DNA from: Hydrangea macrophylla
Taxonomy: Eukaryota; Streptophyta; Magnoliopsida; Cornales; Hydrangeaceae
Reading direction: 5' to 3'
Assembly (NCBI GenBank): GCA_033977485.1
Contig: CM066988.1
Location: 53,133,649-53,197,648, forward strand
DNA length: 64,000 nucleotides
The notes under the pieces were generated by a model. That model saw nothing but the letters and a program-made list of their open reading frames with translations, was not told the DNA's origin and searched no databases. A program made the translations under genes and the position numbers. This document shows, piece by piece, positions 6,816-61,249 of this stretch; within the stretch, counting starts at the first letter, position 1, and the number at the start of each line of letters is the position of its first letter.

Positions 6816-6816
6816 T

Positions 6817-9077
6817 TGTCACACCCGTTCCAGAAATTTATGATTTTGAAAATGCATCATTTGAGATTTTGAAATTATTAATGTTATTAATAATTTGAGT
6901 TGAGGTTGACTGTGAGTCAACGGTAAGGTGTCAGTGAGGACACGGGAACATGGCAGTTCATATTGCATGGGCATGAGTAAATGGCATTTATGTGATTTAA
7001 ATGTTATTTGACTTTATCTGGTATTCCTGTGACTAGTAATTATACCTGTGTAGTATAATTCTGGTATTTGGATACTTTTGTATATCATTTGAGAACTGTG
7101 GCGAGAACGTGAGTGATACGTTAATTAACAGGTAGGTTGTGTAGAGATTTCACAGAATATAGTTTTCGGACGTTATTTTTGGGACCCAAACGAAACCTAG
7201 TCGAAAACTTTTGGAATTTATAATTTTCACTCGTAAAGGCATAAAGTGAACGTGTGCAAAGTTTCGAGAGCTAATGAGAAGTTTTGAGAAACTTGCGGGG
7301 AGGTAAACGTAATTCCCAGAAAGTTTGCCTATAAATAGTGGTGGATGAGATTCATTCTCATCCAAACACTTCCAAAATATCTAGAGAGAGGAGAGAGAAG
7401 GGAGATTGAGCCAACGGGCTTTGCGACGCCGATCGACGACCGTTCGTCCATCAGATTTTCTCCAGATTTCAGATTTGAACTCGTGGAGGTACGATCTACG
7501 TTTTGATACTACTTAGGCCGTGTTTGGCCAATTTTTGTAAAAATCTAAATTCTAGACTTTTGGGGAAAACCCAGTAAAACTTATAGGAATTGCCTCAAAT
7601 TTAAAATTCGACAATTAATTAGCCCCCTAGACGATCCTTCAAAGTTTGAAGAGATTCGCACGAGGTATGAATTCTAGATCTATGAAATATATGGATTTTC
7701 ATGTCTTGAACATCAACTTTGATATCCTTGGATCTAGGCGAAATTCATTTATTAGTTAGGCCCGTTAATTATGCACGTGAAATTATGTAAAAAGCACGTA
7801 TAACTGTTTATATGAGCACGTTATGTGTCTACTTGGGTCAAAGGGGAGATTGGTGCAAATTCATCCGGAGTAAGCTCCTCGAACCTTGAGGATTATGATG
7901 TTGCTTGTGATGGAATTGGAATTGTGGTTGTGTCTGGATTGGAGGTGTGCCCAACCAGGACACGGTACCTGGTATGGAGGAAGGCCCAACCAATGTACGA
8001 GATGCGTGGGAGAGGTGGGCCTCCTACGGCATCGACCGGATGAATGCGTACCACTCACCCTAGAGACTATTTCTATGTGTTTTAGATGCTTAAACCATGA
8101 ATTGTCATATAAGCATACATTTAGAATTGTGCACTCAGCATATAGCTGAGCTGTGGAGATGTACTCCATTGCAGGTAAAAAGAAAGACAAGAAGAATCGT
8201 GAGGAGTGAGGCCGAGGAACGCCGGAGAATTACAATTGTACATGTTTTTGTTTTAATCCTCACCTTGTGTAAGGATTTATAAATTATAAAATGTTGTAAT
8301 AAAATCATGGATTAGTTTTGTAGCATTGTAATCTTGTAATTGAACGTCTGTAGTTATATTTAATAAGTTGTTATTGGTGTTGGTTGTGATTGTTTGTGGT
8401 TTTGAGAAGCCTAGATTAGTATTTTCACAACAGGGCTGCCCAGCAGGGGAGCAGTCGACTGGACCCTATGTCAGTCGACTGGATCCCGTGTGATTGAGAC
8501 ACTGAAAGTGAATAGTAAGAGAAGCAGTCGACTGGACCTTTGATCAGTCGACTGAACACTGTTGATTTTTGGCTACTGCTTCTAATAATGGTAAAACCAG
8601 TCGACTGGGTCCCCAGATCAGTCGACTGGACCCCCTTTTGAAAATGTTAATTTTGGTTCTGCATAACACAGTCGACTGGGGGAGTGAGCAGTCGACTGAA
8701 CCACTATAGATTTTAGCTACTGATCCAAATAGTAACCAGTGCAGTCGACTGGGTCCCTTGATCAGTCGACTGGACCCTTGTTGAGGAATTTCAGGTTTTG
8801 GTTTCTGCTAGGCACAGTCGACTGGACCCTAGGCACAGTCGACTGAACCCCTGTTTTCAAAACTGAATCTTTTGAATGTGTTTTCACTTGGCCAAAACTT
8901 TTTATAACTCAAATTTTCAATAGATTTGTCAACTCAGAGGGCGATGTTTCCTAAGTTTTAAAATACCCAGGGTTGTTTTAAAGTTCTTTCCGCTGCGAAT
9001 TGTTAGATGATGATTGGATGAACCTTGGTGGCGTGCCACGTGTCCTATTTCCAGGCGTAGTGGGATGGGCTGTGACA
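6817..9077 (+). repeat. 3' LTR of element 1
   Basis: Copy of 14-2272 with the same ends. In this copy all twelve CAGTCGACTG palindromes (8452-8845) are perfect and the spacing from first to last (384 bp) is the same as in the left LTR. TATA box at 7330-7337. Confidence 0.95.
8452..8845. repeat. Phased array of CAGTCGACTG palindromes (3' LTR)
   Basis: Twelve of twelve sites are perfect palindromes here, including the two that are mutated in the left LTR. Pairing and period match the left array. Confidence 0.95.
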
Positions 9078-14722: not shown

Positions 14723-15015
14723 TGTCATACCCCGGAGCGGCAAAACAGAGAAAAATAAATTTCCTTTTTGGGTCCATAGGGAATGACGGGTGAAAGTCAT
14801 TAATTATCCACACCACACAGTACTAGTCCACAAGATAAACAGGAACAGTAAATAACTGAATATAAAACGTTTCTATCTATTACACAACATCAGAGTGTGG
14901 TCCACAGGATCACAACAGGTCTGGAGACAACATATGCCCAAGTACCCGTTAACTAAAACAAAACAGAGTTCAACAGAACAACAGAAATGAACTAAGTATG
15001 ACTATCTTCAGATCT

Positions 15016-15195
15016 TCAGCTGGCGTAAGGATAGTCATCAGCATAATATTCCTCTCCCGTAGAACCTGCACCAGTTGGGCAATCCTCTACATAATCCAAA
15101 TCCGGGTTGTAGCCATCACCGTAAGTTCCAATACCAACATTGTTAAGGATAGGGTAGTCTGGACGGGGAATGTCCAAGCAATAAAGGCCGTCAGC
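15016..15195 (-). CDS. Small acidic, Tyr-rich ORF inside the element 3 LTR
   Basis: Open frame of 59 codons after an upstream stop. It reads CLDIPRPDYPI near the start and ends YADDYPYAS then stop, rich in Tyr, Asp and Gly. The copy in the other LTR (23364-23543) has one internal stop. A similar ending (EDYGFAS) closes an ORF at the same relative place in the solo LTR at 48447-48692. No methionine start is seen. It may be the end of a spliced LTR-encoded peptide, or only shared ancestry of the LTR DNA. Not recognised as a known family. Confidence 0.35.
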   Translation of the reverse strand, partial: ADGLYCLDIPRPDYPILNNVGIGTYGDGYNPDLDYVEDCPTGAGSTGEEYYADDYPYAS

Positions 15196-15387
15196 TTATT
15201 AAAAACTGAGTGAGAACTAACTAACACAGTCATATAGAAATAACGTAATCATCAGTTATGAACGATATATAATAGTGATACTAATTATATCTCTTCCTCT
15301 TTTAGTTGGACACATCATTAACCGATTCTCATCATCTACCAACTCTAAGGCTGACTAAACCAATACCTATTAACCATCTCGAACTAA

Positions 15388-15681
15388 TTATATCATCACA
15401 ACATACCAATACTCTTGTTCACCACTATACCGCTTTTAAGAACTCTTGCGAGCACCCATACATTGTTATCATATAACGACTGGTCTACGGATGTACCAAT
15501 ACTCTTGTTCACCGCTTTTAAGAACTCTTATTGTTCACCGCTTTTAAGAACGCTTGCGAGTATCATACATATATAGCTCCGGCAAATACAAACCATGGGC
15601 GTGCCACATCTACTCTTGTTCACCGCTTTTAAGAACTCTTACTGTTCACTGCTTTTAAGAACGCTTGCAAGTAATGTGCAC
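15388..15681 (-). repeat. Hairpin cassettes in element 3 LTR (3' copy)
   Basis: Three units at 15388-15476, 15491-15570 and 15601-15681. Each has self-complementary outer arms different from the others, for example GTGC, ACAT and ACT on the left of unit three facing AGT, ATGT and GCAC on its right. Inside are arms of GTTC facing GAAC around ACCGCTTTTAA. Units two and three have two such inner arms, giving a possible three-way junction; unit one has one. Confidence 0.75.
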
Positions 15682-16034
15682 CCATAATTCTCAAGATCCT
15701 GATTAAATCCTTGTTACACACTTATCGGATTCAATCTAAGCGAATCATCAGTTCGACTCACATAACCTCCAAGATAACCAATAACCCACTGACTCAAACA
15801 CTAGTTACTCAATGCTACCCACGGTTATTATCTCAAATCCTTATCTCGTAATCGCATCATATTATTACTAACTTTCTGAACCTGACTGCGTTACTCACCA
15901 TATTATCTCAATCTAATTATCGTATCCCATTACCTCCATAATCTATAATATCGCATAATAGAAACATGAAACAACAATTAAACAACTACGCATTATGAAA
16001 CAAAGCTAAAGGAACACATCCATGTTCTGCTGGG

Positions 16035-16199
16035 TTCGATCGATTGAAATCCTTTCGATCGATTGAAGAACTGTGATGTTCGATCGATCGAAGTATTCTC
16101 GATTGATTGAAGTGGAGGTGGTCTCGATCGATTGAAGCCATTTCGATCACTTGAGACTCAGTGGTGTTCGATCGATTGAACGTAGTTCGGTCACTCGAA
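16035..16199. repeat. TCGATCGA-type site array, 44-bp period
   Basis: Eight 14-bp sites like TTCGATCGATTGAA start at 16035, 16054, 16079, 16098, 16123, 16142, 16167 and 16186. Spacing alternates 19 and 25 exactly, a 44-bp period. The matching array in the other LTR is 24378-24541. Confidence 0.93.
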
Positions 16200-16649
16200 C
16201 TTTGTCTTCACCAGAATTCTGCAGTGAACGTGCAGAATCTAGTAGGGGTTATTTGGGTTAATATGTTCAAAACATATAAAATGTCATAACTAAGATACCA
16301 AGTGAGTTTGGAGCTCACTGAAAGATCGTAAGGGCGCTTTTGGAAAGTGTGAGCTTTGAAGCTTTAATGGCGGCCTCCTCTCTCTCTTCTCTGCGTCAGT
16401 TTCTTCTATCTCTTTCTCTGTCTCCTTCTTTTCTCCTCTTTGTCTTCTCCTTCTTACTTCTGTCTCTCTCTAACTGTGAGTATATATATAGGAGTATGTG
16501 TGTATATAGATTAACACACAAGCACACACACTCTCTAACTCTCTCAAGTTCAGCAAACCCTCACACACACAAACACGACCATATATATAGAGGGGGGGAG
16601 TGTAGATGGCAAGGTTTGCGGGAAACCTGGGAATACAAATGATTACAAG

Positions 16650-16842
16650 TTTGATCGATCGAATGGAGTTCGATCGCTCGAGATAAGTTCAGCCAGGTTT
16701 GATCAATTGAAAAGACTTTGATCGATTGAAGTAGGGTCCACGTATTAAATTCAGTTCGATAGAGTTTCGATCTCTCGAACAGGGTTCGATCGCTTAAACT
16801 TTGGAAATACTCGATCGCTCAAACGAACTTCGATCGACCGAA
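16650..16842. repeat. Second TCGATCGA-type site array
   Basis: Eight sites start at 16650, 16669, 16698, 16717, 16766, 16785, 16810 and 16829. Pairs are again 19 bp apart. Matching array in the other LTR: 24994-25184. Confidence 0.9.
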
Positions 16843-16920
16843 GGTAGAATTTTAAATATGATCAAGGGAAGTACATAGAATCTTGTGCATAAATATTTAT
16901 TGAAAATACAGGGTATTACA

Positions 16921-16937
16921 TCATCCACCACTCATTA
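16921..16937 (-). other. Polypurine tract of element 3
   Basis: Read on the minus strand, AATGAGTGGTGGATGA ends directly at the LTR start TGTAATACC. Confidence 0.75.
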
Positions 16938-23063: not shown

Positions 23064-23730
23064 AAAACCCTGTCACGCTCCGAAGCAGCAAAAATAGAGA
23101 AAAATAAATTCCGTTTTAGGTCCATAGGGAATGACAGGTGAAAGTCACTAATTATCCACACCACACAGTACTAGTCCACAAGATAAACAAGAACAGTAAA
23201 TAACTGAATATAAAACGATTCTATCTATTACACAACATCAGAGTGTGGTCCACAGGATCACAACAGGTCTGGAGACAACATATGCCCAAGTACCCATTAA
23301 CTAAAACAAAACAAAGTTCAACAGAACAACAGAAATGAATTAAGTATGACTATCTTCAAATCTTCAGCTAGCATAAGGATAGTAGTCAGCATAATACTAC
23401 TCTCCCGTAGAACCGGCACCAGTGGGGCAATCCTCTACATAATCCAAATCCGGGTTATAGCCATCACCGTAAGTTCCAATACCTGCATTGTTAAGGACAG
23501 GGTAGTCTGGATGGGGAATGTCCAGGCAATAAAGGTCGTCAGCTTACTGAAAGCTGAGTGAGAACTAACTAACACAGTCTCATAGAAATAACGTAATCAT
23601 CAGTTATGAACGATATATAACAGTGATACTAATTATATCTCTTTCTCTTTTATTCGGACACATTATTAACCGATTCTCATCATCTACCAAAGGCTGACTG
23701 TACCAATACCAACTGACCATCTCGAACTGA

Positions 23731-24025
23731 TTATATCATCACAACATATCAGTGCTCTTGTTCACCGCTATACCGCTTTTAAGAAATCTTACGAGCACCC
23801 ATACATCATTCTCATATAACGACTGGTCTACGAATGTACCAATACTCTTGTTCACCGCTTTTAAGAACTCTTACTGTTCATCGCTTTTAAGAACGCTTAC
23901 GAGTATCATACAAACATAGCTCCGGTAAATACAAACCATGGGCATGCCACATCTACTCTTGTTCACCGCTTTTAAGAACTCTTACTGTTCACCGCTTTTA
24001 AGAATGCTTGCAAGTACTTTACACC
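23731..24025 (-). repeat. Hairpin cassettes in element 3 LTR (5' copy)
   Basis: Same three units as 15388-15681. In unit one the inner end of the outer arm is GTGCTC facing GAGCAC, paired here although the other LTR copy has a mismatch. Unit three has lost part of its right arm. Confidence 0.7.
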
Positions 24026-24377
24026 CATAATTCTCAAGATCCTGATTAAATCCTTGTTACACACTTATCGGATTCAATCTGAGCGAATCATCAGCTCGAC
24101 TCACATAACCTCCAAGATAACCAATAACCCACTAACTCAAACACCAGTTACTCAATGCTACCCACGGTTATTATCTCAAATCCTTATCTCGTTATCGCAT
24201 TATACTATTACTAACATTCCGAACCTAACTGCGTTACTCACCATATTATCTCAATCTCATTATCGTATCCCATTACCTCTGTAATCCATAATATCGCATA
24301 ATAGAAACATGAAACAACAATTAAACAACTACGTATTATAAAACAAAGCTTAAGGAACACATCCATGTTCTGTTGGG

Positions 24378-24541
24378 TTCGATCGATTGAAGTCCTTTCG
24401 ATCGATTGAAGAACTGTGATGCTCGATCGATCGAAGTATTCTTGATCAATTGAAGTAGAGGTGGTCTCGATCGATTAAAGTCATTTCAACGCTTGAGACT
24501 CAGTGGTGTTCGATCAATTGAACGCATTTCGATCACTCGAA
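24378..24541. repeat. TCGATCGA-type site array (5' LTR copy)
   Basis: Eight sites as in 16035-16199 with some point changes and a 1-bp loss; pairing retained. Confidence 0.88.
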
Positions 24542-24993
24542 CTTCATCTTCTCCAGAATTCTGCAGTGAACGTGCAGGATCTAGTAGGGGTTATTTGGGT
24601 TAATATTAAACGTCCAAAACATGTAAAACGTCATAAGTAAGATACCAAGTGAGTTTGGAACTCACCGAAATATCGTAAGGGGGCATTTGGCAAATGTAAG
24701 CTTTGAAGCTTTAATAGCGGCCTCCTCTCTCTCTCTTCTCTGCCTCAGTCTCTTTTGTCTCTCCTTCCTTTCTCCTCTTCTTCTTCTCCTTCTTGCTTCT
24801 GTCTCTCTCTAACTGTGAGTATATATATAGGAGTATGTGTGTATATAAATTAACACACTAGCACACACACTCTTTCTAACTCCCTCTCAAGTTCAGCAAA
24901 TCCTCACATACACGAACACGACCATATACATAGAGGGGCGGGAGTGCAGATGGCAAGGTTTGCGGGAAACCTGGGAATACAAATGATTACAAG

Positions 24994-25184
24994 TTCGATC
25001 GATCAAATGGAGTTCGATCGCTCGAGATCAGTTCATCCAGTTGATCGATTGAAAAGACTTTGATCGATTGAAGTAGGATCCACGTATTAAATTCAGGTTA
25101 GTAGTGTTTCGATCGCTCAAACAGGGTTCGATCGCTTGAACTTTGGAAATGCTCGATCGCTCGAACGAAGTTCAATCAATCGAA
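24994..25184. repeat. Second TCGATCGA-type array (5' LTR copy)
   Basis: Copy of 16650-16842 with point changes. Confidence 0.88.
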
Positions 25185-25262
25185 GGTAGAATTTCAAATA
25201 TGATCAAGGGAAGTATATAGAATCTTGTACATAAATATTTATTGAAAATACAGGGTATTACA

Positions 25263-25267
25263 TGTTT
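25263..25267. repeat. Target-site duplication of element 3, right (tgttt)
   Basis: Same as 14718-14722. Confidence 0.93.
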
Positions 25268-39100: not shown

Positions 39101-42100
39101 AAAGGAAAGATGGACACATAAAATGGGACGGAGGGAGTATATATCTACTATTTTAACCCCAAATCTATGATTATTTCTAAAAGAGCCACAAAGAAACCAT
39201 AAATTTTAAAGACATATTGTCTTAAGTGCTAAAATACTGGAGAATTTTCCCCCCTCACGATAATAAAAAATATACACATATTTAATTAACATAGACGCTT
39301 CCTAAACACCCCAAACCTTAGACTCTTCTATGTTCGCCCGCACCCCCGCTCCGGCTTCGTGCAACTTAGATTTTGAATATCTAAGTTTCAAGTGGTAACT
39401 TTAACATTTTGAGCCTTGCTATGGCATGAAACTTGTGTTAAATTGTTATTTTGTTCATTTTAATCATTGTATTTGGGTTTTTATATATGTGTGCAGTGCA
39501 TACATATTCTTATATTTGTTTTCGCAAAAAAAGCAAATCTTAGGATTCATAATTCAATAAGATTCGCGATCAATCAATTTGCAAACAGATGCATGATTTG
39601 ATTCACAATTTGACAGCAATGACAACAATAAAAATAGTGTAGTGTAGATTCTGTAGAAAACTAACAAGTCCTCCATGAAAATAAAAATGCCAACCAGGTG
39701 GACCATCTACAGGTTACACCAGCTAAAAAATACAACCGCAAGGACACTATAAGTAACAAAACAGATGGTTACATCATGCATGCGCTTTCAGCTTATCTGA
39801 CCGGCAGCACTTTCTTTGTATGTGTTGAATACGACAGAACAAAACCTCGTTAGTACAGAAGTTTGCAAATATTGTGACTGATCAACTTTGACCATATTCT
39901 TATCTTAAAACTAAATCATGCCACGGGGAGTAAATAGGAGAAAATCTAATGGAACCAGAAAGTTGGCGGATTAAGAGTCCTCTAACCATAACCTTAAGTC
40001 TGTTTGCTATGTGGACATAGAATGATCGTAAACGTAAAACAAAAATGAGAAGGAACCCATTTCCCTAGTGTTTTACTCCACTCTCATATAACACTAGAAG
40101 TCAATTTTTCCAAAATATAGTAGAAAGATAGAAACTCAAGAAAATGGGAAGGGTACTGAGTTACCAAATAAATAACAAAGAAAAGTATTTTCTTTCCTCA
40201 CTTTTCACTCTCTTATCTTTTCCTTTCTATTTCCTCACTGTTTTCCTTATTAACCAAACAAAGAAAAGTAGTTTCCTCAATGTTTTCTTTCCTGTTCCCT
40301 CACAAAATCCATGAACCAAATGGGGTCTAAAAGAATATTTCTCAGGTTTGAGTTATGCATTCAAGGTAGTTGACATTCTTCTTTCTATGTTACATTATTG
40401 ACTTGGTGACATAAGCAATCTTCTCTATATTAATACAAATACTGTTTGCAAAAATGAATCTCTTGATCATGATGACAGATTTGAGGATTGCCCAGCATAC
40501 CTGCTGTCTCATGGTGGAAAATTCAGGATGACTAGCAGCAATGACCGCCTTGAACATTCGAGGAGGTATTCCCTCCTGTTTCTGAAAGTCGGAGGCAACA
40601 AAAGAAAAAAAGTTAAAAATAATTGTAAAAGCATAGGAAGGAAGATGTGAAACAGACCAACAAAAGTAGCATTGTACACTCTAAAAGATGAACTTCTTGA
40701 CACCAAACCAGCTATATAAAACGGGGGGTAAATTACACTGACCTCCCTTGAGACTTATGACTTTTTTACACTTGGACCCATTTTCCCAAAACCTATTAGA
40801 AAATGCAACAAAATTTCACGTACCAGGAAATAATTTTTTACAAATGCCAAAATTGCCCTTCACAGAACCTTAAACGTCAAGTAATTGATCTTTAAATAAC
40901 ATTTGTTTGCATTTGAATTAACATTTTATAAAACATTAATCACATGAAGTTTAAGATTGTGTGAAAGTAGTTTTGGTATTCAAAGAAAATATTTGTTGAT
41001 GTCAGCACATCTCATAACATTTTCCTCAGTCGTTTTCCTCGTAACAACGTTATAAACTTCAAGGGAGGTTAGTGAAATTTTGTTTAACTGCTGGGCTAGC
41101 TGAAATTATGCCATACCTCAAGGCGAGAGCATTTTTGCTCACCCAAAATTTGGTACACCAATGCTCACCCAAGCATCCCATTGGCCAATGCAGTGGGGCC
41201 CAGGATTAAACAAATGTTGTTTAATATTGTTTAATCCTGGGCCCCACTGCATTGGCCAATGGGATGCTTGGGTGAGCATTGGTGTACCAAATTTTGGGTG
41301 AGCAAAAGTATTTTCCCTCAAGGCCGAAGGGAGATAAATGTAATCTACCACACCCCCTACCACCCCACAAAAAAAAAAAAAAAAAAAACTCAAGTGATGG
41401 AACTGCAATTTAACTTTATCATGAAACCACACAGGGTGGATTAGGAAATTCAAATCACAAAATTCAAGGCAACTTTTAAGGAAAGATTCAAAATATGCCA
41501 ACGGAAATAAGACTGAGCAAAGGGTAAAAGGTCCAGCCAGAAAGCTTACAGCACTTGGAGTCGTGTTCGCAACATTTGCAGTATCATCTTTCTAGATGAC
41601 AACAAAAAAGAAAATGTCATTTCACAGAAAACCGAAACCAATGGCATAAGAACTACCAGACTATAAATTATATATACCTCCGGTGCAGGAATTGAATATT
41701 TACCCGACAACAATCCATGCGCCAGTTTTGTCCTACCAAGCAATAAAAAAGGTGTAATAAAGCTTCAAACTCATGCACAACCAAAATTAATACATGCTAT
41801 TAGAGGTGTCAAGCGGGCCGGGCCGGGCCAGGCTTGAGAGAGGAGGGGGGTGTCCGCCCCGGACTGGTGGCACGGGTCTAGCGGGCCGGACCGGCTAGCG
41901 GGCTTCCATCAATTTTTCAACTTTTTTGACCGGGCCATGGTGGGCTTCAGGCCGGGCCAGGGCGTGGACGGGAGGATGGGTGTCCAGCCCGGCCCGGGGT
42001 ATGTGAATCAGGCCTAGCAGACCGGGCATGGTGGCGGGCCGGGTTTTAGCCCGAAAAAAGCGCGGCAGGCCGGGCTCAATCCAACCCGGCCCGTTGGACA

Positions 42101-45100: not shown

Positions 45101-48100
45101 TTCTTAAAAGTGCAAGTGAAATTGGCTGTAATTTTGTTGGTTTATTTTTACAAGGATAGAGTGGGTATCTCAAGGAAACTAAAAACCGATTTCAGCAAAA
45201 TCTGTTTCCTCAACATGTGTAATACCCGTAAAATTTTTGTAGCTAGTAAAATGAGATCCCGTATTTTGGTTCGTATTTCCAGTAATTGATTTCGTAAATT
45301 CAAAAAACGAACATATACATGAGTGTGTTTATAACTTAGACTGTATATTCGGACCCGGACTGACATTGCACGCATACCCGTAATTTCTGTACAGAAATTA
45401 GACTGCACGGCACGTGGTCCTAGGCAACGACTAAACTATACAATTATAGAAATAGGAATCTTTCCCTAAATGGGTAGTGTACCACCCAAACCTACTTAAA
45501 CCTATTGTGTATAAGCTTTACACAAACCACCCCCTACAACCCGCCGGATTTTAACCCCCACACCTCCACCGCCGGTACACACTCTCCCACCCCCTCTCTA
45601 AACCTATCACTCAGTCCCTTCCATATTATTGTCACATAGATACCCAAATCTGTGTATATAAATGAATATATGTATAGGTGTGTTTATATATGAGAGTTGA
45701 GAGTTGAGAGAGAGAGTTACCGAGAGTTTGAGAGAAATGAGTTAACCCACACCCACAATTTTCCCCCTCTATCACTCCTGTTCCTCACCATCACACACTC
45801 AAGCCATAGAAGCAGAGGAGGAAGAAGAGGTCACAAAGAGAGAGGGGCACGCAGAGAGAGAGAGAGAGAGAGAGAGAATCCGAAACTGTGGTAAGACCCC
45901 CCTATACTTCCCCTCATTGATTTTCTGTATTTTAGTACCTCACGCACACACACAGACCCCCAGTCGCGAACCAAACAGAGCCTAAGCCCTCTGTCACCCC
46001 AAAACCACCATTAAAGCACCTCACCGGAGCTTTATTTTGCAAATATGACCAAAGCCCATTTTTATTACACCAAACAGACCCCCTTGGTCCCAGATAGACC
46101 CCTTTTAAGCAGCCTTTGAAAAGAACAACGTTTGGTCCACCATGCAGACCATTATTCCTTAAAAACCGAAAAAGAATAATTGAATAGTAGGACCCTAAAA
46201 CGAATGAACCTTGACCCTAGCTTATAGTATATTGTAGAGGGCCCCATTCCGGTCCTTTTGGCGTTGACGGCACCAATTTTTATGGAGAGGAGAGTGAGAT
46301 ATGAGAGAGAGAAGTTTTCCGGCGAAAACGGGCGTCGCCGGCGGCGGCGAGGGCTCACCGGAGAAGACACGACCCGAATAGATTAGGGTTATATCGTTTA
46401 CCCATGGGTCGGGTCGGGTTTCGGGTCGGGTCGGGCCAATATGGGAGTATATATGGTCGTGGGCTCGGGTTATAACAATCGAATGGGTATTGGGTCGGAT
46501 CTTTTAAGTTGGATCGGTCTCAGTGTGTAAACGGGTAACACGTTGGTTCGGGTTGGATTTGGGCTGACCCGCGGGTTTAGACTAATAGTTAATTAGTTAT
46601 TTTTATATCCTTAATTATTCTATTAATCCTGATTTACGAATTTATATATTGTTTTAATAATAATTAATGTTTTATTAATTCTGTTAATTCAGATTAGTAT
46701 TATATGTATTATTTACTATTACTACATATTAATAAATAAATATAAATAAGTATAAATGGCCTTTAAATGACTTAAAAATAGTTTTAAAATACTATAAATT
46801 GTATTTTTATAATCTGAAATATTATTGTCCATAATAATCTTATATTCTGAAATTTAAAACAAAACTCTTATATAATATACTTATAATTTATTTAAGTTTC
46901 TTATAAATAATAAGTAATTGTTTTAAATTAAAATAATTAGGTAATAAATACCTAATGACAATTTTAAAATATGAGAAAATTTTATTAAATTTTCCTAAGA
47001 CCTAATGTCTCTAACTTATAAATTATTATTTATAAGGCCCATACTTTGGTATTTCTAATAATTACTAATCGTTATTTAAGGACCCGTTTGGTTGTATTTA
47101 ATTTATTTAAATACCAAACGAACTCTGAGAATAATGAGAAAAATACCACTAGCTTATTTTAAGGCCTAGTATTTAATAAAAATATTTATAAGGGTCAAAT
47201 GTCTTCCTAAAATATATTTTATTATTAGGGTGTTTTAAGTCTATTATTTGACGATTAAACTTCAGAAATTCATAATAAATAAACTGTAGCTCAGAAAAAT
47301 ACGCGATCAGTTCCTAGAGTCTTAGAATAACGTCTAGAACATCCCCTTAAAGTTTGGTGACCTTTCGACACGGTCAAAAATACAGCTTATCTATAAGGCC
47401 CAAACTGGTATAGAAAACCCAGCCTTTTATGCGACGGAATCCGATTTGAGTCTAGTCAATGGCGTTAAACTCAGAATGATGCCTAGATCATCATGTTGAG
47501 GTTTAGGAACCCACCCGGCACAATTACCATTATGCCCTTAATTTTAGTATGTTTATTAATCAACATTCTATGAATTTATATACTTTGTAGGAACCACCGC
47601 TACACTCGTTTATACGCACCCGCTTCAAGGTGAGTCGTCGAAACTCACTTGGTATATTATAGAATTATTCTTTGTACATATATGTATACCCAGTGCGTCC
47701 TGTGTGGACGATACTGATAAGTATTAATCATGTGAATGTTGAGATTCCTACTTATATGATGAATCCATGTTAGTTAACTATACTCCATGTCTAGTTAATA
47801 ATCATTGACATTCTAGCTTATTATGTTTTCACGTTTATACAGTCACATGAACATTCATATGAACATAGTCGAGTCATGATGTCAATGTTGACGTCTGCAT
47901 GGTTAGTCACGGGGACTAACCCAGTCATATTGTTACACACATTGAATGGACCGCAGTGGTCCGAGTGGTACAGTCAAGTAAATGGGAACAACGATGAAAC
48001 TGCTATAGGGCCCTGCTAGACGACGATAGCCAGAATTTCCATTGAAATCATTGAAGTTATGTATGAGTGGATGGTTGATACGCTATAGGGCCATGCTAGG

Positions 48101-51100
48101 CGACGATAGCAAAGTATCCATCTGAATACAATAGTTACCTTTTGAATGCTATAGGGCCATGCTAGGCGACGATAGCGCTGTAACTATTCAATTCTCCCGT
48201 CAAGGTCACGAGGACCTAAGGGTCCAATGATTACACTCTTTTAAAACCAAAATTTGCTATAGGGCCCTGCTAGGCGACGATAGCAACGTAATCATTCTAC
48301 TCTAAGCTAACGGTGTTACACTGGTAATGTAACAAGTTACATGAGTCAGTTGTGGTGTCTGTGGTCGAGTTAAAGTCGAATATATCGATACTGCATTGTG
48401 TCGTCATACTACCATGTCACATGCTCATTAATATTATTCCAAGATATTGTTGTATCTGCATATCCTTATATGTATTAGGAGTGATCGATTAAGACGATTT
48501 CACTTAGCTTCAAAAGCTAACGGCTCCTTCCCTGCCCTGGACATTTTACGTCTAGGTTATAATGAGGAGAACTATCAAGGTAACCCTAAAGGTGAGTATC
48601 ACTATCCTCAAGATGGGAACTATCAGGGAGATGATCCTGAGGCAGACTATCAGGAAGAGTATGATAACGAAGATTACGGGTTTGCCAGCTAGAAGAAGGA
48701 CTCTGGCCCACTTTCGTATTAAGACTTACTTTATGTTTTAAATAGTTATCTTTTGTTATGTAATACTTTAAGTGGCGTCGATCGCCCAACTTATCTTTTG
48801 TGGTTTTCATTTGGAACTTCTGTAATAGCCTAAGTAGCAAATACTTTAAGTTCCCCCATGAATACCATTAGACGCTTTTGCAATGCCTTACTCTGATATA
48901 TATAATTATGTTAATATGTTGCACGGACAAGGTCAATTTTATGTAACTCGTCATTCCCTATGGGTCCAGAAAGAAAATTTTAAATTTTCCCTATTTTTGG
49001 CTACTCCGGGGCGTGACATCATGTACTTCTTAACAGATCGGGAAGCTATCACCAACAACAAAAACTGAAGGGAAATTGATGTAATTTCTCAATGTTAGTG
49101 ACAGCAATATTTTTTACCCACACGTTCACTAAATTTAGTGCAATTCACCCTTTCCATGGGTATGGCTTCATAACGAAGATTGAGAACCTAAATTTTCCAC
49201 CCAATGGTACATCAAATTGCCTTGTAGAATTCTCTTTCCAACGTTAAGTCCAGATTTATTTGGTCGCATTAAAATTACTTGAAAAGAATACGAAGAAAAA
49301 CATGCACACATATCACACACATTAAGAGTGCGAACTCCAGACTAGATGAAGCATAATTGCATTTCGTAATACATACTCACCTTTTGCATTGATGAAAAAT
49401 CAATTCCAAAAAATGCCAGATGTTGTGCTAAAAGTGGATCAAGAACACTTTCATCCTCCGGATAACAGAAGACATCTGAGCTGCCACAATTCTCAACTCG
49501 TAAGTATATTTGAATAAAGATAAAATCATGTTCACAAACAAAATTTAGTCTTGAGAACATGTTGAATGAAGACGAAAAACTAACAAAAAAAAACTAGAGA
49601 TAGCATATTGCAGCCAATTTAAGACCAAACAGCTACATTAAAAAAATGGCTTATTTCAACTACAGGAACATGCTTGGTAGCAATGTGTCAGGCAACCAAT
49701 TTATAAACAATTATGCTCCGTTTCGACCCAGAGAAATGGAGAGAAGAGAAGAGAAAGTAGGGTTCTCTCCACCCTTATTGAATAGATAGGAGAGAAGAGA
49801 AAGGGAATATAACTTTCTCATGTTCAATTAGCTTTCATCAGAGTAATTGAGTAAATAAATAAAGTATTTAAGACCAGTTTCAATTATGCTCCATAGCCTT
49901 TGAGTTTGTTGGCCTTTCAGGTGGCACCAGTTTAGCCTCGGTTCCTTCATTTTGATTGACGGATTTGCGGAGAGAAGAGACAAGATCTCATCCAAAGTAA
50001 GAGAAATTTGGGTTCTCTCCACCCTGTTTGGATATAGAGGAGAGAAAAGCAAGAAAATATAACTTTCTCTTATTCTGTTAGCTTTCATAAGAGAGAAGAA
50101 GATAAGGTATGTAGAACCAATATCTTTTGTCACCCTCTACAGAATAATGATACTTCATAAGTGCGACAGATTAGGAATATCCAGGTCTTTTATAGAACAT
50201 TTTTATTTTCCGTCTCTTGACTCTCTTTCTCTTCTCTTGAGTTCCTGCAACTTGAAGATTAAAAAAATTTGTGCTCCTTTCCCTCTTACTTTCTCTCCAA
50301 TTCTCTCCACTAACCTTCTCCTCCCTCCAAACTTAACTTACAAAACAAGAGAAGTGGAAAGAAAGGGGTTCTTTTATTTTCTCTTCTCTCTAACTTCTCT
50401 CAATCCAATTATAGTGCTAGAGACACACTTGGTTCACATTGGATGAGGATGAGAACCATTTCTACTCGATAAACAGCCAACACATTAATCGTCCATTAAC
50501 AATGTGCAGGCAACAAGCACAAAACAATATGACATCTCTACTTCTGGTATGCGTTATTTCACTTCTTTATGCCCATTAAGTACACAATTTTAAGATCCAG
50601 TTTTTCTGGGTAGCTTTAACTGGACCCTTCTATCGACTTTCCTAATGACTGGCTTTCTAATTTACCTCAAATCTATGACATCGACTCAGGTATGTGTGTA
50701 GGGCACCGGTACATGTCTAAGTATCACATTTCCCAAATTACTGAACTTAAGGACACGGAGAGACGACAATAAATTTACATTCTTCTTATATTTCTAAGAG
50801 AAAAAGTGTTTTTAGGTAACAAATAAGACTTTAAGATGAGTATTCATTCATTTTGAAAGAACTTTAGCAAAAGGAATAAAATACAGTTTTAACCTACCAT
50901 TACACAACTAACTAACATGCATCTTGGTGTGTGACCAACCAGAACTATCGGACACTTAACCCATACCCCTCCATTGACTCCAAAAGACCATCTCAACACC
51001 AAAACCAAGTTTTCTGACATAAAAAATTGCGCATATTCCTAATTGATCAAATGGATTGGAAACTCTTATCTCAATCTTCTAAGTTTAATGTTTGTCTTGT

Positions 51101-60211: not shown

Positions 60212-61249
60212 ATAGGGTTAGTTCTAAAACTAATCTCTCAACACAACGGAACTTCTCAACTCTTCATACAGGGAAATAGAACGTGCGACCTTACGAAAAG
60301 AAAGTACAGCGACAGGAGTGTAATGCCAAACCATCACCATAACCAACAAGACACATCACTCGGAAGCTTCTTGTGCATGCCTTAGACGATTCAACCACAC
60401 CAGACATAGCATTCTCAATCCCTCGGTGAAAAGAAGTGCTGCACCACCTCAATGTAATGTACTCATGACATATCAGTAACAAAATACGATTGTCGCAGGC
60501 CTGCTAATGAGTCACAAAAACATGGTGTGTTATTGAATGGTCTTCCCTGAGCCCACATGTCAATCCGACTAACTAACCGCTTTCCTAGACACGCCCCATA
60601 GAACGGAATTGCCTCGTCGTCCTAGGATAGCATGCTAAAGTAGTTGTCATCAAGCATCCTCTTCATGACATAGTCTCAAGTCGTGAAGGCAACCAGTTTG
60701 TAGGATAACCAATGTCTTGGATATGCTACATGGCTCACACAGCAATGAAGAGGAATCCATTCACTGCTCCACAATCGATCGCAAAAGCACATATAGTATG
60801 AAATGTATGCTATGGCGTTCTTCCATAAAAATGGGCATGTCACTCTATGTTTGGAAAACAAGTAACGCCATACGAATCTTAGTCTAGACGTTACACAAAA
60901 CGTCTAACCAGAGTTTTCCAGCACAGTCGCCACTCCTGGCGTTTGTCTGAAAACTCACATTCGGCTATAAACAGGCTACATAGAGTCGTGGGATATCTCT
61001 ATGTTCGACCAAGTATAAGGTCTCATCTTAGATCCATCTAAGGCGACATATAGAAATAGCTGTTCTTATACTGCATAGATATAAGTGTTCAAGCTCGCTT
61101 TCTAAGCGCTATGGACACATATGTCCTAGCTAGCTATCTAAGCGCTATGAACACATGTCTCATCTTGCTCGCCATCTAAGCGCCATGGACACGCATGTCC
61201 TAGTTCGCTATCTCGGCGCCAAGGTGAATCACCCGTGTGAGCAGGTCGA

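Follow-up and report, generated by a model that had tools for sequence, protein, structure and literature searches.

The window analyzed here, a 64,000-nucleotide stretch of Hydrangea macrophylla contig CM066988.1, contains a solo long terminal repeat (LTR) that carries four tandem hairpin cassettes, each consisting of a nearly constant 29-base core enclosed by its own pair of outer arms. The LTR runs from TGTAATACCCG to GGGGCGTGACA (TGTAATACCCG...GGGGCGTGACA), and its flanks, ACATG and TCATG, form a near 5-base target duplication with 4 of 5 bases identical. The LTR and the components of its array are as follows.

45218..49018, forward strand: solo LTR, 3801 bases
47948..47962, forward strand: small hairpin GGACC(GCAGT)GGTCC, preceding the array, read in the sequence and present in the fold
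47981..48043, forward strand: cassette 1 (arms 47981-47989 and 48035-48043, core 48002-48030)
48070..48122, forward strand: cassette 2 (arms 48070-48081 and 48114-48122, core 48082-48110)
48130..48188, forward strand: cassette 3 (arms 48130-48138 and 48180-48188, core 48148-48176)
48203..48217, forward strand: small hairpin AGGTC(ACGAG)GACCT, separating cassettes 3 and 4, from RNAalifold on 18 arrays
48226..48296, forward strand: cassette 4 (arms 48226-48234 and 48288-48296, core 48256-48284)

When as many as 3 mismatches were allowed, the core, GCTATAGGGCC[C/A]TGCTAG[G/A]CGACGATAGC, had four matches in the window (48002-48030, 48082-48110, 48148-48176, and 48256-48284, all on the forward strand), where 0 matches were expected from 100 shuffles. 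These results confirm the observation, made earlier from the letters alone (the sequence-only reading), of a 29-base core recurring four times nearly unchanged. That reading had also folded the core as GCTAT with ATAGC outside GCC with GGC; this pairing is possible, the one departure being GAC in place of GGC in cassette 1 of the window copy. The resulting head comprises a five-pair stem, an asymmetric internal loop, a three-pair stem, and a six-base loop. Outside the head, the two perfect nine-base stems previously proposed were found in cassettes 3 (AATAGTTAC/GTAACTATT) and 4 (AATGATTAC/GTAATCATT), while the arms of cassette 2, GATGG(TTG)ATAC/GTATCCATC, contain a 3-base bulge and those of cassette 1 are AATGGGAAC/ATTTCCATT. 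The 3′ arm begins 3 to 4 bases past the core, and the 5′ arm stops 0 to 21 bases short of it. A cassette model (R1) run over the window picked up all four cassettes plus a single match at chance level (39390-39468, minus strand, E 1.3).

Pairing between the arms was compared with that of shuffled flanks. For the window copy, the summed flank duplex energy had a z of −5.4, and none of 1000 shuffles was as good; copies L013 (z −5.8) and L024 (z −5.7) likewise gave 0 of 1000 each. When cassettes of the window copy were considered singly, shuffles as good as the real flanks made up 11.9%, 2.0%, 0.6%, and 0.4% for cassettes 1 to 4, so that cassette 1 is not significant on its own, as is also the case for cassette 2 of L013 and L024 (23 to 24% of shuffles). 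In the average over 35 arrays, the strongest partner of every 5′ flank is the 3′ flank of the same cassette, by a narrow margin for cassette 2 (−8.9 versus −8.5); the window copy shows one exception, in that cassette 2 has a 5′ flank with a slight preference for the cassette 4 3′ flank (−13.8 versus −12.9). Folding energies of single cassettes were mildly below those of shuffles (z −0.2 to −2.8), which is a weak test.

Across the host genome (2.22 Gb, 19 contigs), the core pattern with no more than 3 mismatches has 8,219 matches (3,948 forward and 4,271 reverse), and a reversed-pattern control has 0. From approximately 100 matches listed, all on contig 1, 40 stretches were fetched; the listed loci L001 to L008 overlap others and were excluded from arm counts. 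Exactly four cassettes at a standard spacing (about 80, 66, and 108 bases) were present in 35 of 41 LTR sources, and each cassette position has its own arm pair that recurs by position across the copies read. The pair AATGGGAAC/GTTTCCATT (nine pairs, one G.U) was seen in 31 of the 59 cassettes typed as position 1, while position 2 carries GATGG(TTG)ATAC/GTATCCATC or GATGA(TTG)ATAC/GTATCCATC across copies. A relaxed pattern, in which the core stems were fixed and a loop base was changed, matched 22 places in the genome (control, 0); among them, L049, L050, L053, L062, and L065 form a diverged clade in a tree. Five or six cassettes occur in LTR copies L049, L058, L062, and L063, with six in L049 and L062, where the cassette 3/4 pair is doubled. 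The exact core pattern had 0 matches in viral and prokaryote contig collections, a result that is uninformative on other plants.

Column diversity over the 41 LTR sources was 0.051 in the cores, 0.041 to 0.042 in the arms, 0.104 in the array spacers, and 0.140 in the flanking LTR. The arms are therefore about 3-fold less variable than the flanking LTR, and among 5000 random samples, each made up of eight ten-base blocks, 0 were as low; compared with the spacers, the difference has a p of 0.0004, calculated over neighboring columns that are nonindependent. Because the loci were found via core matches, conservation of the core is biased, but the arms had no part in the choice.

The four positions differ from one another through compensating changes. 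Modal arm pairs form 36 of 36 standard pairs (cassette 2 bulge omitted), the best of 24 matchings, and five of the nine arm pairs (positions 1, 4, 5, 6, and 7) are changed on both sides between cassettes. In a pooled set of 62 distinct arm pairs, from which 3 of 243 cassettes with more than four arm changes were dropped, 90.5% of cells pair. Pooled covariation was 0.458, compared to 0.236 ± 0.016 for shuffled arms (0 of 500) and 0.06 to 0.19 when the arms were slid, the cells being nonindependent and mostly of four arm types. In this pooled set, neither pairs with two-sided change (128 of 500 shuffles as high) nor further pair types (56 of 500) went beyond shuffles. The core helix is constant and displays no covariation.

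Two-sided changes were also seen at individual loci: A-U to U-A in cassette 1 (L012, L058, L063, and L069), A-U to G-C in cassette 3 (L049 and L053), and, in cassette 4, U-A to C-G in L049 (the pair is U.G in L062) as well as C-G to U-A in L053. Pairing was kept in 15 of the 26 kinds of change common to at least two loci versus 9 of the 35 private kinds (Fisher p 0.017, ancestry-naive). RNAalifold, applied to 18 arrays hand-picked among those with four cassettes, recovered cassettes 2 to 4 with their arms, the core hairpin of cassette 1, and the hairpin at 48203-48217. Overall, a structure of the array is well supported, with arm covariation seen between cassette positions and weak or absent within them. 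The sequence-only reading had offered two explanations, structure kept by selection or arms that were re-acquired. The first is supported by the low diversity of the arms (0.042 versus 0.140), by pairing above shuffles, and by the compensating differences between positions; the second is not borne out, as one set of four arm pairs is found, position by position, in the copies read. For the roles which that reading had suggested, in packaging, transfer, translation, or protein binding, the sequence does not discriminate among them, and its interpretation is partly supported. It had also proposed two checks, on arm pairing against shuffled flanks and on covariation among copies: the arms do outpair shuffled flanks, while covariation among copies of the same cassette is nonsignificant.

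The host family of the array appears to be a high-copy, chromovirus-like Ty3/gypsy family. The LTR at 45218-49018 has the TG...CA ends and approximately 5-base target duplication expected of a Ty3/gypsy chromovirus, and many of the arrays sit in LTRs of whole elements, as judged from listed arrays spaced 10 to 11 kb apart and a primer site, TGGTATCAGAGC, after the LTR. This site is exact in L010, L028, L029, and L048 and has one mismatch in L026; it is of the tRNA-Met type and matches initiator tRNA-Met. In the relative L009/L010, pieces read from stop to stop have matches to gag, protease, RNase H, and integrase, in this order. The chromodomain match is weak (Pfam Chromo E 0.0014, 18.9 bits, under the 25.1-bit cut-off), and a reverse transcriptase piece was not found among the L009/L010 frames scanned. 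The family may be a Tekay-like chromovirus. LTR pairs or near neighbors are 94 to 99% identical (L028/L036, 98.6%; L026/L034, 96.6%; L010/L009, 94 to 95%). L010, on the reverse strand, contains two open frames of 156 and 331 amino acids past its 5′ LTR, between the primer site and gag. Neither frame matched a Pfam family, and a protein search with the 331-amino-acid frame returned 1118 candidates, none with E ≤ 0.001. A TATA-like box is located at 45655 in the LTR of the window; if it is used, the array would lie far inside the transcript.

The array is bracketed by two anchors, the second of which is followed by a short open frame.

47630..47648, forward strand: upstream anchor hairpin GTGAGT(CGTCGAA)ACTCAC, splice-donor-like, splice role putative
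48517..48555, forward strand: downstream anchor CTAAC...TGGACATT...CGTCTAG, branchpoint/acceptor-like, splice role putative
48556..48692, forward strand: short open frame that lacks an ATG and ends FAS-stop, weak candidate exon

By their motifs, the anchors resemble a hairpin-held splice donor and a branchpoint plus acceptor. The upstream hairpin was found with up to 1 mismatch in 56 of 63 sources, and the downstream block was found in 52 of 63. The short frame is acidic and tyrosine rich.

A second LTR family in the window, located at 14723-16921 and 23071-25263 on the minus strand, contains an array that is a new find: it is unrelated in sequence and has the same design and the same two anchors.

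15391..15692, minus strand: second-family array, copy 1 (units 15616-15668, 15505-15557, and 15415-15449, with 24-base flanks)
23734..24035, minus strand: second-family array, copy 2 (units 23959-24011, 23848-23900, and 23758-23792, with 24-base flanks)
16302..16318, minus strand: second-family upstream anchor hairpin GTGAG(CTCCAAA)CTCAC
15159..15194, minus strand: second-family downstream anchor CTGAC...TGGACATT...CGTCCAG

The core of this array is made of near-copies of GTTCTTAAAAGCGGTGAAC, two each in units 1 and 2 and one, altered, in unit 3. The outer arms are unit-specific, about 20 bases long, and self-pairing, with summed z values of −7.7 and −7.2 for the two copies (0 of 2000 shuffles each). 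Own pairing was strongest for every unit of copy 1; in copy 2, unit 1 is the exception (−13.2 versus −15.3). BLAST and motif searches identified three blocks common to both families, namely, the LTR end, the hairpin GTGAGT...ACTCACTTGGTAT, and CTRAC...TGGACATT...CRTCYAG, and the arrays of both families sit between the donor-like hairpin and the last of these. A counterpart of the short frame in the second family ends YAS-stop.

We tentatively propose that the array is a multivalent RNA docking site in the leader for one protein, most likely the element's own Gag or nucleocapsid, and that it would serve as a packaging or dimerization signal. In this scheme, the leader part of the LTR transcript would contain four RNA hairpins, every one presenting a constant head on its own stalk. 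Because the head stays constant while the stalks differ, a partner would be expected to read the head, and the repeated head would be the recognized part, bound by one protein. The distinct stalks would keep each unit self-folding and away from its neighbors; the cross-pairing values indicate that, on average, they limit cross-pairing. Multivalent display of one head would fit the docking of a multimerizing protein such as Gag. Retroviral packaging signals are confined to unspliced genomic RNA through their placement in a leader intron, and the hydrangea array may similarly be intronic and retained solely in unspliced genomic RNA. The proposal builds on the observed anatomy and copy number of the array, the constraint on it, its own-arm pairing, the compensating differences between cassettes, and the parallel array of the second family; transcription of the region, its splicing, the binding protein, and packaging are all presumed.

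Several observations weigh against the docking proposal. When 271 arbitrary places of the same geometry in the LTR were considered, 42, 8, 16, and 24 of them equaled cassettes 1 to 4, respectively; with the single-cassette results, this indicates that the set of cassettes is exceptional rather than each unit. Whole-array folding energy is unremarkable (z −1.7 sense, −1.1 antisense). Covariation within positions is weak or absent, with shuffles equaling or exceeding the real value in 109, 2000, 948, and 681 of 2000 trials for positions 1 to 4, a lack of significance that follows from arms that hardly vary among copies of the same cassette. RNAalifold returned a covariation term close to zero (+0.25) and paired the outer flank of cassette 1 otherwise in the 18 arrays, and pair-breaking changes are shared among loci (cassette 2 position 5, A.C, 22 loci; cassette 1 position 7, A.A, 6 loci). 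Conservation of the core carries the locus-finding bias noted above. Finally, the splice-like sites are motif-like, with unremarkable letter-by-letter conservation, and the short frame at 48556-48692 shows a weak codon signal (codon-position diversity of 0.128, 0.092, and 0.130).

A less probable explanation, which draws on the same hairpins, is that they act on splicing or translation and not on packaging, by shortening the donor-acceptor distance or by restraining splicing or ribosomes, and thereby determine how much of the RNA is spliced and how much stays unspliced. The position of both arrays, past a donor-like hairpin and ahead of a branchpoint/acceptor-like block, is in keeping with this, as are the recurrence of the anchors (56 and 52 of 63 sources) and the splicing reported for the transcript of BARE1, a plant LTR element (PMC3735527). 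Shortening, however, would need stems and no constant head, yet the head is the constant part, and the splice sites are motif-like only.

It appears improbable that the cassettes are DNA-level repeats, that is, enhancer sites bound by a chromatin protein or a transcription factor, whose inverted symmetry reflects a dimeric site. LTRs are regulatory DNA, and 29 bases are near-constant at four places per LTR of this family; however, the arms differ among cassettes through compensating changes, the commonest form of cassette 1 contains a G.U pair, and the spacing of the arms from the core (0 to 21 bases for 5′ arms, 3 to 4 for 3′ arms) suits a looped single strand over a dimer on duplex DNA. The arms were also considered as candidate homeodomain sites. 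An origin as a mutational by-product seems equally improbable. Here, quasi-palindrome correction by template switching during replication or reverse transcription would create compensating arms without selection, and the cassettes would be old tandem copies. Such a process would yield perfect arms that differ between units, and it agrees with the absence of selection-like covariation within positions, but arm conservation exceeds that of the surrounding LTR, both spacing and arms hold steady among the copies read, and an unrelated array stands at the same place in the second family. A self-cleaving ribozyme repeated four times is very improbable, since, although a stem-loop of constant letters whose outer arms are free resembles small ribozymes and hammerhead-bearing plant LTR elements exist (retrozymes, PMC4918200), Rfam models over 46000-50000 gave no ribozyme family up to E 5, and four cuts would sever the genomic RNA. 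The sequence-only reading had seen no hammerhead core. The same Rfam scan returned no family at threshold and three sub-threshold matches, none of them inside the array.

To our knowledge, the cis-acting signals in the RNA of Ty3/gypsy elements from plants have received little definition. A literature search of titles and abstract openings found no description of such hairpin arrays. The HIV-1 5′ leader has a donor-bearing hairpin followed by packaging hairpins. As in that retroviral leader (PMC4974535), a hairpin with a donor-like GTGAGT is followed by more hairpins in what would be an LTR-derived leader; unlike those of HIV-1, the hydrangea hairpins share one head, repeat four times, and lie inside the LTR, hundreds of bases past the donor-like site, with a packaging role that is putative here. 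The packaging stem-loops of satellite tobacco necrosis virus (PMC6475782) are also repeated hairpins with a common recognized part and variable stems, although they are dispersed and degenerate, whereas the hydrangea array is tandem with a 29-base constant core. BARE, another plant LTR element, has separate translated and packaged RNA pools and splicing, with packaging and dimerization signals mentioned, but it belongs to the Copia superfamily, its intron is within gag, and no repeated hairpin cassettes are described in the available text (PMC3735527). Tekay and other plant chromoviruses share with the present family the tRNA-Met type primer site and the near 5-base target duplication, and one relative also gives pieces of gag, protease, RNase H, and integrase and a chromodomain match that stays below the Pfam cut-off; the accessible portion of that account (PMC6317226) describes no hairpin arrays, and the relative studied here has the extra 156- and 331-amino-acid frames before gag. 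Retrozymes resemble the hydrangea LTR in having a structured RNA motif within a plant LTR element (PMC4918200), but no hammerhead was found in the hydrangea LTR by Rfam over 46000-50000, and the hydrangea family is a full coding element.

A broader possibility, which we regard as speculative and rather unlikely, is that the LTRs of chromoviruses contain a class of packaging or RNA-fate element that is rapidly re-invented. It would take the form of an intronic hairpin array that lies past a donor-bearing hairpin and combines a single constant head with stalks orthogonal to one another; different families would evolve unrelated heads at the same place, as if each head were co-evolving with its own Gag. 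If true, the retroviral leader, in which a donor hairpin and packaging hairpins are combined, would have an independent parallel here. The constrained array, with thousands of core matches in one genome, and its second-family counterpart provide concrete segments for tests of Gag binding, splicing, and packaging. A constant head on unit-specific stalks would also be a natural way to set identical hairpins adjacent to one another without mispairing.

Two other repeats were noted in the window. A third LTR family (13-2272 and 6816-9077), in which neither the donor-like hairpin nor the acceptor-like block was found, has about ten CAGTCGACTG palindromes near 1640-2050 in the LTR. A 36-base tandem repeat of 3.3 copies at 61092-61213 contains GGACACATATGTCC-like palindromes.

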